Positions 5,309 to 8,568 of a DNA stretch of 64,000 bases are shown piece by piece. The notes beneath the pieces are model-generated. The model was not told the origin of the DNA, searched no databases, and saw only the letters and a program-made list of their open reading frames with translations. A program made the position numbers and the translations under genes. Where the stretch lies: NCBI RefSeq assembly GCF_030718995.1, contig NZ_CP132204.1, forward strand, positions 2,418,001-2,482,000. The letters run 5' to 3'. The first letter of the stretch is position 1. Each line of letters starts with the position of its first letter. This DNA comes from Arthrobacter oryzae. GTDB lineage: Bacteria > Actinomycetota > Actinomycetes > Actinomycetales > Micrococcaceae.

Positions 5309-5398
5309 TGGCGGTGACGGTGGGATTTGAACCCACGTTGGCTTTTACACCAAACAACATTTCGAGTGTTGCACCTTCGGCCGCTCGGACACGTCACC
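5309..5398 (-). tRNA. tRNA-Ser(CGA)
   Basis: The minus strand folds into a class II tRNA: acceptor GGTGACG/CGTCACC, anticodon stem CAACA/TGTTG with loop CTCGAAA (anticodon CGA, reading UCG), a long variable arm (TTGGTGTAAAAGCCAA), TTCAAATC T-loop and discriminator G. The 3' CCA is encoded at 5309-5311, unlike the other three tRNAs of the window. Confidence 0.95.
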
Positions 5399-5503: not shown

Positions 5504-6532
5504 ATGATCACTTCCCAGCAGCACGCCCAAGCCCGCTCCCAAGCCAAGGCCTATTGGACCGTCGGCCACGAAAAAGGCGAGCTCCGCACCGAGGAGCTGT
5601 CCGCGCCGGGTCCCGGCGAAGCCTTGGTCCGTGCCCTGTACTCGGGTATCAGCAAGGGAACCGAGACGGTGGTCCACTGCGGCCACGTGCCGCCCAGGGT
5701 CGCGGAGCAAATGCGGGCACCCCTCCAGGAGGGCTCGTTCCCTTCGCCGGTGAAGTTCGGCTACCTGTCCGTGGGAATCGTGGAGGAAGGCCCCGCGGAC
5801 TGGGTGGGCCGCACGGTGTTCTGCCTGCATCCGCACCAGGACCGCTACATCGTTCCGGTCGAGTCCCTGACGGTGGTCCCGGAGAACGTCCCTGCCCGTC
5901 GGGCTGTCCTCACCGGAACCGTGGAAACCGCCGTCAACGCGCTGTGGGAAGCCGGACCGCGCCTGGGCGACCGCGTTGCAGTGGTGGGCGCCGGGCTCGT
6001 CGGCGGCATGGTGGCCACCCTTCTGCGGACGTTCCCGCTGCAACGCCTCCAGCTGATCGACGTCGATCCCGCGAAGCGCGCCTTCGCCGACGCCCTTGGC
6101 GTCGAGTTCAGCCACCCCGACGACGCCCTCGCCGACTGCGACATCGTCATCCACTGTTCAGCATCCCAGGAAGGGCTCGAACGGAGCCTGCAGCTGGTGG
6201 GCGACGAAGGGGACGTCATCGAGATGTCCTGGTACGCCGACCGCAAAGTCACCATCCCGCTGGGGGAGGACTTCCACGCCCGTCGGCTTTCCATCCGCGC
6301 CAGTCAGGTGGGCGTGGTGGCCCGAGCCCGCCGCCACCGCCGGACCAACGCCGACCGCCTCGCGCTCGCTGTGTCCCTGCTCAGCGATCCCGTCTACGAC
6401 ACGTTCCTGACGGGGACGTCCCCCTTTGCGGAACTTCCCGCCGTCGTCCACGAACTGGCCGAAGGCCGGCGTGACGCGCTCTGCCACGTCATCGAGTACC
6501 CATCCGAAACCGCCGCCGAAGACAAGAGGTAA
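5504..6532 (+). CDS. MDR-family zinc-type alcohol dehydrogenase-like oxidoreductase (pterin-like cluster)
   Basis: 342 aa from the ATG at 5504; the frame is open further left but that region overlaps the tRNA. A GroES-like N-terminal half carries YSGISKGTE, and the nucleotide-binding half carries VVGAGLVGGMVA, a Rossmann fold followed by an acidic LIDVD strand end typical of NAD preference. The usual structural-zinc four-Cys loop is absent. Family enzymes oxidise or reduce an alcohol/carbonyl; the closest described shape I know is the BchC/threonine-dehydrogenase-like group. The stop is 3 nt before the TTG start of the PTPS-fold gene, so the two are co-transcribed and probably coupled. A TAGATT hexamer at about 5488-5493 may be the -10. 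Confidence 0.85.
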   Translation: MITSQQHAQARSQAKAYWTVGHEKGELRTEELSAPGPGEALVRALYSGISKGTETVVHCGHVPPRVAEQMRAPLQEGSFPSPVKFGYLSVGIVEEGPADWVGRTVFCLHPHQDRYIVPVESLTVVPENVPARRAVLTGTVETAVNALWEAGPRLGDRVAVVGAGLVGGMVATLLRTFPLQRLQLIDVDPAKRAFADALGVEFSHPDDALADCDIVIHCSASQEGLERSLQLVGDEGDVIEMSWYADRKVTIPLGEDFHARRLSIRASQVGVVARARRHRRTNADRLALAVSLLSDPVYDTFLTGTSPFAELPAVVHELAEGRRDALCHVIEYPSETAAEDKR

Positions 6533-6535
6533 CCG

Positions 6536-6934
6536 TTGTTCAGCCTGACCGTCCGCCGCCACTTCATGATTGCCCACAGCCTTCCCCGGGAAGCCTTCGG
6601 GCCCGCCCAGGGCCTGCACGGGGCCACCTTCGTGGCGGAGGTGACCTTCCGCCGTCGGACGCTGAACGACGACGCCATCGTCCTGGACATCGGCGCCGCC
6701 GGTGGGCTCATCGAAGAAGTACTGGCGGGCCTGAACTACAAGAACCTGGACGAGCACCCTGACTTTGCCGGGAAGCTGAGCACCACCGAGGCACTGGCGC
6801 AGTACATCGCCGAGGCCGTCGCAGCCAAGGTCCGCGGCGGCGTGGACGGCCGGGAGCTGGCCGGACTGGCTGTCACGCTCCGGGAGAACCCGGACGCCTG
6901 GGCGTCGTTCTCCCTTGACTTCGACGCCGAGTAG
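6536..6934 (+). CDS. 6-pyruvoyl-tetrahydropterin synthase / QueD-fold protein lacking catalytic residues
   Basis: 132 aa, family length, TTG start with AAGAGG upstream. The tunnelling-fold (T-fold) pattern is clear: FMIAHSL (H14), LHGATF (H28) and LRENPDAW (E117). Compared with E. coli QueD from memory, the catalytic Cys27 is Ala24, zinc ligand His33 is Ala30, and the Asp70-His71 pair is Asn67-Tyr68. Two of three zinc ligands and the pterin-anchoring Glu remain. It may therefore bind a pterin-like ring without carrying out the QueD or PTPS reaction. It sits between the MDR dehydrogenase (3-nt gap) and a glycosyltransferase (20-nt overlap). I recall similar HGATF-type proteins in Streptomyces next to the same neighbours, which would make this a conserved subfamily of unknown role. 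Confidence 0.82.
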   Translation: MFSLTVRRHFMIAHSLPREAFGPAQGLHGATFVAEVTFRRRTLNDDAIVLDIGAAGGLIEEVLAGLNYKNLDEHPDFAGKLSTTEALAQYIAEAVAAKVRGGVDGRELAGLAVTLRENPDAWASFSLDFDAE

Positions 6935-8069
6935 CGCGGCAGTGCCTGGGTCCGGAGGGGCTAGCCTGGCGGTCCGGCTGATCGTGCCGGGCAATGTGCG
7001 GCACAACTCCGGGGGAAATGCGTACAACGCCGCCCTGGCCCGCGGGCTCACCGGACTCGGGGCAGCGGTGGACATCCTCCCCGTTGACGGCCACTGGCCG
7101 GTGGGCAGCGGGGAAGAACGACGGCGGCTGGCCGGCGTGCTGCTTGAAGGTGGCCCCGAAGGGGCGGCCGGCGAACCGGTGACCATCGTGGACGGCCTGA
7201 TTGCGCTGGGTGCGCCGCACGCTTTGGAAGAGGCCGCTGCGGCCGGGAAGCAGGCCTGGATCCTGGTGCACATGACCCTCCCGGAGCACCCGGACCTGGA
7301 GGGGCGTGCCCTGGCCGCCGCTGCAGGCGTCATCTGCACAAGTTCGACGGCGGCCGCCGAGCTCCGGTCCCGGCACGGTTCAGCGCCGAACGGTTCAGCC
7401 CCGATCCACGTAGCGCTGCCCGGCACCTCTGCCGCTCCACTGGCGGCAGGCTCCAGCCCACCCCACGTGGTGGCCGTGGCAGCCCTGCTGCCGAACAAGG
7501 ACCAGCTCCTGCTGCTGGAGGCACTCGCCGGGATCAGGGATCTGCGCTGGACCGCCGCTCTGGTGGGTTCCGACTCCGCGGATCCGGCGTACGCGGACGC
7601 CGTCCGCGGCGCGATCATCCGGCTGGGGCTGGCAGACCGGGTCTCCGTTCGCGGGGAGCTCACCGGGCAGGCCTTGGAGGCGGAGTGGGACCGCGCGGAT
7701 CTCAGCCTGCTGATTTCGCGGGCAGAAGCCTACGGAATGGTGGTCACCGAGTCCCTGGCCCGCGGAATCCCGGTGGTGGTGCGGGCCGGCACCGGCGCCG
7801 TCGAGGCGCTCGCAGCCGGATCGCCTGGCCGGTCAGAAGCTCCCGACGGCGGTGCAGCTGCCGACGGCGGTGCGGAACGCGCCCTGCCGGGCGCCGCCGT
7901 CGTGCTGGGCACGGACCCTGCGCCGCTGGAGGCTGCACTGCGTACCTGCCTTACCGACCCGGAGCTTCGCTCACGCTGGCGCGAAGCGGCCCAGGCCGCA
8001 CGGAAACGGCTGCCGGGCTGGGACGCCACGGCCAGGATCGTGCTGGACGCCATCGCAGCGGCTAGCTGA
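6915..8069 (+). CDS. GT4-family glycosyltransferase (pterin-like cluster)
   Basis: 384 aa if the TTG at 6915 is used; this overlaps the PTPS-fold gene by 20 nt. A GTG at 6942 is an alternative and the first 18 residues look unconserved (Ser/Gly/Ala). The GT-B fold is visible: N-terminal VRLIVPGNVRHNSGGNAYN, inter-domain VAALLPNKDQLLLLEAL, and the C-terminal donor-site EX7E-like block AEAYGMVVTESLARG. GT4 enzymes move a sugar from a nucleotide-sugar to an acceptor with retained configuration. A low-complexity Gly/Ala/Asp insert (about 305-335) interrupts the C-terminal domain. The position after dehydrogenase and PTPS-fold protein suggests glycosylation of a small heterocycle. The 3' end overlaps convergent tadA by 8 nt. 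Confidence 0.85.
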   Translation: MTSTPSSAAVPGSGGASLAVRLIVPGNVRHNSGGNAYNAALARGLTGLGAAVDILPVDGHWPVGSGEERRRLAGVLLEGGPEGAAGEPVTIVDGLIALGAPHALEEAAAAGKQAWILVHMTLPEHPDLEGRALAAAAGVICTSSTAAAELRSRHGSAPNGSAPIHVALPGTSAAPLAAGSSPPHVVAVAALLPNKDQLLLLEALAGIRDLRWTAALVGSDSADPAYADAVRGAIIRLGLADRVSVRGELTGQALEAEWDRADLSLLISRAEAYGMVVTESLARGIPVVVRAGTGAVEALAAGSPGRSEAPDGGAAADGGAERALPGAAVVLGTDPAPLEAALRTCLTDPELRSRWREAAQAARKRLPGWDATARIVLDAIAAAS

Positions 8070-8568
8070 TCTGCCGGTGTCCAGCGAAGAAATCCCGGAG
8101 CAGCGTGGCACACTCCTGCTCACGGACTCCTGCGTAGACCTCCACCCAGTGGTTGAGGCGGCGTTCACGAAGAATGTCGAACACCGAGCCGGCGGCACCC
8201 GCTTTCTCGTCCCATGCCCCGAAGACCACCCGAGGAATCCGTGCCAGGACAATGGCTCCGGCGCACATGGCGCAGGGCTCCAGGGTCACCACAAGGGTGC
8301 AGTCCGCCAGCCTCCAGCCGTCACCTGGCGTACCGCCCCGGGCACCGATTTCCTGCAGCCGGGCGGCCGCCTCACGGATAGCCACCATTTCGGCGTGCGC
8401 GGTGGGGTCGCCGTGCGCCTCCCGTTCGTTCCTCCCGGTTCCCAGGACATCGCCGTCGGGACCGATGACGACGGCGCCGATCGGCACGTCCTCGGTGCCC
8501 AGCGCCCGCCGCGCTTCCGCGAGGGCAAGGCCCATCCACTGGGCATGGCGCGGCTCCGGGGAAGTCAT
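8062..8568 (-). CDS. tadA: tRNA-specific adenosine deaminase
   Basis: 168 aa. The cytidine/deoxycytidylate deaminase-type zinc site is complete: HAE (H58, catalytic E60) and PCAMC (C99, C102). The family deaminates A34 of tRNA-Arg(ACG) to inosine; that substrate tRNA is encoded in this same window at 27377-27450. The ATG at 8568 is directly preceded by a TATCAT hexamer and a 6-nt gap, implying a leaderless transcript. Nucleobase deaminases share the fold, but length and the DVPIGAVV start favour TadA. Confidence 0.92.
   Translation of the reverse strand: MTSPEPRHAQWMGLALAEARRALGTEDVPIGAVVIGPDGDVLGTGRNEREAHGDPTAHAEMVAIREAAARLQEIGARGGTPGDGWRLADCTLVVTLEPCAMCAGAIVLARIPRVVFGAWDEKAGAAGSVFDILRERRLNHWVEVYAGVREQECATLLRDFFAGHRQIS

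Follow-up and report, generated by a model that had tools for sequence, protein, structure and literature searches.

The locus under study lies in a 64,000-nt stretch of the Arthrobacter oryzae genome (hereafter the window) and consists of three co-directional genes encoding an MDR dehydrogenase, a protein of the PTPS/QueD fold and a glycosyltransferase (GT), referred to below as the trio (Table 1). The three ORFs were found at the positions and on the strand originally predicted, as was the 3-nt gap between the MDR and PTPS genes. A 20-nt overlap of the PTPS and GT genes, which had also been proposed, requires a TTG start at 6915; an in-frame GTG at 6942, near which homologues begin, leaves a 7-nt gap after the PTPS gene instead and seems the more likely start.

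Table 1. Trio genes and flanking features in the window
Feature	Position	Strand	Remarks
tRNA-Ser (CGA)	5309..5398	-	upstream flank of the trio, outside its function
MDR dehydrogenase, BchC-like	5504..6532	+	weak BchC/TDH match and predicted fold; GxGxxG nucleotide site kept, Ser50 at the catalytic-zinc Cys
PTPS-IV (COG0720) protein	6536..6934	+	PF01242, 85.5 bits; FGPAQ...LHGATF motif
GT4-type (GT-B) glycosyltransferase	6915..8069 or from 6942	+	PF00534, 61 bits; EAYGMVVTE (EX7E)
tadA-like deaminase, convergent	8062..8568	-	marks the end of the trio

The adjacency of these genes is not a product of chance. Among 80 Arthrobacter/Pseudarthrobacter loci, the MDR gene adjoins the PTPS gene at every locus with room for it (76/76) and the GT gene adjoins at 71 of 77; neighbourhood comparison of 56 loci across families and two phyla gave MDR-PTPS adjacency in 56/56, with a co-directional GT gene next in 53. 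The original prediction, which hinged on the three genes staying together across genomes and placed the same trio in Streptomyces, held on both counts. As for the flanks, the tadA-like gene is convergent at 77/77 Arthrobacter/Pseudarthrobacter loci with room for it, and the tRNA-Ser gene lies upstream at 44 of 74 Arthrobacter loci. The GT gene has been lost, with MDR-PTPS kept, at five of the 80 loci; at one of them (L108), a winged-helix (DNA-glycosylase-like) protein occupies its place.

The PTPS-fold protein is not new but belongs to an already named subfamily: FGPAQ is the published signature of PTPS-IV within COG0720 (PMC5445326). Among solved structures, it is closest to SCO6650 of Streptomyces coelicolor (PDB 3D7J), with which it shares the FGPAQ motif, the fold (TM 0.90), 52 % identity and, in Streptomyces, MDR and GT neighbours. 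In a PTPS tree built by a quick method, some branches of which are long, the window protein fell within a PTPS-IV core clade of 27 rows (SH-aLRT 99) spanning copies from Arthrobacter, Streptomyces, Microbacterium and proteobacterial plasmids; the sister of this core was f18, an actinobacterial family only distantly related, and canonical QueD-like proteins branched outside. It is the single PTPS-domain protein of the window genome. Membership of QueD/PTPS-I was ruled out by residues A24, A30, N67 and Y68, together with a QueD model score of 36.2 bits against a cut-off of 89.25 bits. One PTPS-IV copy, on a Streptomyces anthocyanicus plasmid (L136:10001-10426), has neither an MDR nor a GT gene next to it and lies beside MEKHLA and cupin genes.

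QueD numbering was anchored on the E. coli QueD structures 4NTM and 4NTK. In the alignment, C27, H31, H33, D70, H71 and E110 of E. coli QueD correspond to A24, H28, A30, N67, Y68 and E117 of the window protein. The predicted losses of Cys27, His33, Asp70 and His71 are all correct, as is the retention of two zinc ligands and the Glu (His14, His28 and Glu117). Like QueD (PTPS-I) and PTPS-II/III, the window protein has the T-fold, two of the three zinc His and the pocket Glu, whereas the catalytic Cys, the Asp-His pair and the third zinc His are replaced, CxxxHGH giving way to F21-G22-P23-A24-Q25 followed by LHGATF. Among PTPS-IV relatives, only the distant sister family f18 still has a His at position 30 as the third zinc ligand, while its Cys and Asp-His pair have already given way to other residues; no cluster-linked homologue has either the Cys or the pair.

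The residues H14, F21-G22-P23-A24, H28-G29, T31, D51, G53, Y68, L71, E85 and E117 are invariant in 23 diverse sequences, and Ala24, Tyr68, His14, His28 and Glu117 remain so across two phyla. This indicates a re-tooled pocket, in which the usual catalytic residues were swapped for other conserved ones and did not decay. The Arthrobacter copies are under purifying selection: the PTPS ORF is intact in 80/80 Arthrobacter/Pseudarthrobacter copies, with a median dN/dS of 0.13 relative to the window copy and 0.14 between random pairs. Given the invariant replacements, the intact ORFs and this selection, 'catalytically dead', as the protein was first described, is too strong, even though the canonical residues are indeed gone. 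The same figures make it extremely improbable that the trio is decaying in Arthrobacter and no longer functions there, a reading to which the loss of most partner genes in the clade (see below) and of the GT gene at 5/80 loci would lend itself. Less remote, but still rather unlikely, is a role of PTPS-IV as a non-catalytic binding or scaffold subunit presenting the substrate to the MDR: this would suit the loss of the catalytic Cys and the Asp-His pair, and the constancy of the MDR-PTPS pair, the highest of all (56/56) and outlasting loss of the GT (5/80), but the invariant Ala24 and Tyr68 replacements resemble a re-tooled active site.

As far as sequence goes, neither the MDR nor the GT points to any substrate. 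In the MDR, whose structure prediction clearly shows the MDR fold, S50, G52-T53-E54, P110-H111-Q112 and G162-x-G164-xx-G167 are invariant in 23 homologues, the last of these supplying the glycines of the Rossmann GxGxxG motif. The catalytic Cys of zinc-dependent ADHs is absent: SIC-GTD of TDH aligns with GISKGTE, where Ser50 is invariant. BchC is the nearest curated model, although the match is weak (46 bits, cut-off 291 bits) and, unlike in the BchC setting, no chlorophyll genes were reported beside the MDR gene. In the GT, both Glu of the EX7E motif (E271 and E279) are invariant among homologues; profile comparison placed it closest to MshA-type and other GT4 enzymes, with a far weaker match to UDP-glucose:tetrahydrobiopterin glucosyltransferase (E about 9e-12).

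In annotated copies on plasmids and in genome regions, the trio genes belong to a larger cluster. MDR-PTPS-GT is joined there by GTP cyclohydrolase II together with a RibD_C protein, a creatininase-family protein or both, and further partners are a SAM methyltransferase, a flippase-like LPG-synthase-TM protein and a CDP-alcohol phosphatidyltransferase. The larger cluster was found in Actinomycetota, Alpha- and Gammaproteobacteria. Within 9 kb of the 56 loci, which were picked via PTPS similarity so that the counts describe carriers only, the CDP-alcohol transferase and the methyltransferase were each present at 41, cyclohydrolase II at 39, the LPG protein at 38, RibD at 28 and the creatininase at 20. 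Domain scans of cluster RibD proteins gave only the RibD_C reductase domain and no deaminase domain. In family f18 the gene order is RibD-MDR-PTPS-GT-methyltransferase, the GT and methyltransferase forming one ORF at three loci, and folB is divergent beside the cluster in 10/10 loci. PF00925 and PF01872, reported as common PTPS-IV neighbours (PMC5445326) though not obligatory for the subfamily, are present in the full clusters of relatives. The family name and part of the neighbourhood were already known before this analysis; new here are the cluster in its full extent across phyla, the cyclohydrolase/creatininase pattern described below, the intermediate sister family that retains the third zinc His and the evidence for an origin of the Arthrobacter trio by gene loss. 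A literature search, with most subscription journals outside its scope, returned nothing for SCO6650 by name, a metabolic model only for SCO6655 and no description of the cluster product.

The cyclohydrolase switch column was compared in the 39 clusters with this enzyme. It is non-Tyr in 20/20 clusters with a creatininase (15 Met, 3 Leu and 2 His) and Tyr in 19/19 without (Fisher p 1.5e-11, ignoring shared ancestry, the loci not being phylogenetically independent). An E. coli RibA fragment served as a guide in one cyclohydrolase alignment; the 39-cluster counts are independent of it. SCO6655 of S. coelicolor is reported by Spoonamore and colleagues (2006) to go no further than the formylated pyrimidine because its Tyr is replaced by Met. 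Deformylation of this pyrimidine is an established activity of the creatininase-family FAPy formamidase BrbF (PMC9478397). From this Tyr/creatininase pattern, both cluster designs appear to converge on the same deformylated diaminopyrimidine nucleotide. Since the cluster RibD consists of the reductase domain alone, the 2-amino group should then be retained, which, by analogy with QueD/PTPS chemistry, is the group normally bound by the pocket Glu of the PTPS fold.

These first steps draw on the same families as the early riboflavin pathway (RibA, ArfB/BrbF, RibD), whereas lumazine and riboflavin synthases are absent among the annotated cluster neighbours and MDR, PTPS-IV, GT and methyltransferase stand in their place. 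Because the full cluster starts from GTP cyclohydrolase II, the evidence favours a riboflavin-type diaminopyrimidine as the starting point over a cyclohydrolase-I pterin or a deazapurine. Of the pterin- or deazapurine-like molecule that was predicted to be bound, oxidised and glycosylated, a small-molecule pathway ending in glycosyl transfer is upheld, while its pterin or deazapurine nature is less well supported. Loss of GTP cyclohydrolase I as the reason for the cluster was ruled out, the enzyme being present in all 15 genomes tested.

The trio of the window is a reduced core of this larger cluster, the other genes having been lost in its clade. Some genera of the window's own family carry the full cluster; the window's genus and near genera carry the trio only. 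A tree of MDR and PTPS unites the window copy with its trio-only relatives in a single clade (SH-aLRT 88) that arises from within carriers of larger clusters; one further trimmed locus (L191) falls elsewhere. The methyltransferase profile had no match genome-wide in six trio-only genomes, against a strong match in 6/6 cluster-holding controls. In the window genome we found no creatininase, no match to the cluster-type CDP-alcohol transferase (in a search run without a positive control) and no dedicated RibD, the nearest being the housekeeping riboflavin enzyme. Owing to gene loss in the clade, PF00925 and PF01872 are absent beside the window trio, and only distant copies occur in the genome; compared with the published PTPS-IV systems, the window clade lacks a dedicated cyclohydrolase, reductase and methyltransferase. 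The trio, originally taken as a pathway unit, is indeed conserved, but it is what remains of a larger cluster.

Housekeeping metabolism probably supplies the trio. As a candidate for the missing feeder we considered, and rejected, another GTP cyclohydrolase II at 3.94 Mb of the window genome (L151:9004-11535), the second of this genome, which is fused to an acyl-CoA-dehydrogenase/monooxygenase-like domain and has a RibD_C/DHFR-like gene after it: the enzyme is Tyr-type and fused, and the neighbouring RibD_C is unlike the cluster RibD.

From the observed gene content, conservation, adjacency, cyclohydrolase/creatininase pattern and single gene-loss clade, we infer a set of reactions, their order and a product. 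In this proposal, to which we give a probability of about 0.45, the trio is the core left over from a PTPS-IV pathway leading from GTP, through the cyclohydrolase-II diaminopyrimidine, to an oxidised, PTPS-IV-processed and glycosylated molecule. GTP cyclohydrolase II would open GTP to 2,5-diamino-6-ribosylamino-4(3H)-pyrimidinone 5'-phosphate, either directly with the Tyr-type enzyme or via the formylated intermediate and a creatininase-family deformylase. The RibD_C reductase, having no deaminase domain, would probably yield the ribityl compound with the 2-amino group kept, and the zinc-less, NAD(P)-dependent MDR may oxidise a side-chain hydroxyl. Glu117 of PTPS-IV would hold the 2-amino-4-oxopyrimidine face, and the protein, with Tyr68 and two histidines, might help to rearrange or close a ring. 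A sugar would come from the GT4 enzyme and a methyl group from the methyltransferase; the flippase-like protein and the CDP-alcohol phosphatidyltransferase of the fullest clusters may insert the product into the membrane or carry it across. Of these steps, the window lineage would retain oxidation, PTPS-IV processing and glycosylation alone, with supply from housekeeping riboflavin (or folate) biosynthesis. Two points weigh against this scheme: the window genome has no dedicated feeders, so that the substrate may have changed, and the divergent folB of f18 fits a pterin instead. In addition, pterins are among the substrates that the RibD_C fold can reduce (Rv2671), which counts against the diaminopyrimidine reading.

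These points bear on an alternative that we consider unlikely, yet the closest to the proposal above, i.e. a pterin branch in which PTPS-IV and the MDR would alter the side chain of a cyclohydrolase-I product (dihydroneopterin or a relative), RibD_C would reduce the ring and the GT would form a pterin glycoside as in cyanobacteria. It is favoured by folB beside the cluster in all ten f18 loci, GTP cyclohydrolase I in 15/15 genomes tested, the kept pterin-anchoring Glu and the match of the GT profile to the tetrahydrobiopterin enzyme. Set against it are the far better fit of the GT to MshA-type and other GT4 enzymes, and clusters that encode cyclohydrolase II, not I, with a strict creatininase pattern. 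Cyanobacterial pterin glucosylation likewise uses a GT-B enzyme on a GTP-derived heterocycle, but it starts from cyclohydrolase I and its sequence link to the trio GT is general GT4 similarity only.

A very improbable role is in the synthesis of F420 (deazaflavin), to which a 2016 review assigned PTPS-IV from unpublished work (PMC5041015). FO synthesis does share riboflavin precursors; however, it requires a deaminated uracil, for which the cluster RibD lacks the deaminase domain, no FO synthase was found among the annotated cluster neighbours, and the review refers to a cofactor of archaea.

A bolder extension of the diaminopyrimidine scheme, which we regard as a long shot, is that the MDR and PTPS-IV constitute a second, cyclohydrolase-I-independent route to a pterin-like ring: C2' of the ribityl chain would be oxidised and PTPS-IV would close the ring onto the 5-amino group, the product being a new cofactor or signal that is glycosylated and, in most lineages, methylated and membrane-linked.

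PTPS-IV is a branch of a textbook enzyme family, COG0720, and has been named for more than a decade. The full cluster now offers a testable route from GTP, whose likely first intermediate is fixed by the link between switch residue and deformylase, and the stand-alone Arthrobacter trio provides a small genetic system for finding the oxidised, glycosylated product.

Two further plasmids deserve mention. One from Streptomyces (L141:9935-12520) carries a QueD-QueE-FolE cluster followed by uncharacterised genes, possibly a deazapurine pathway. The mobilizable 59-kb Microbacterium plasmid pSGAir0570_2 (L131) bears a nearly full PTPS-IV cluster near a recombinase and a Mu-type transposase, which suggests horizontal transfer.
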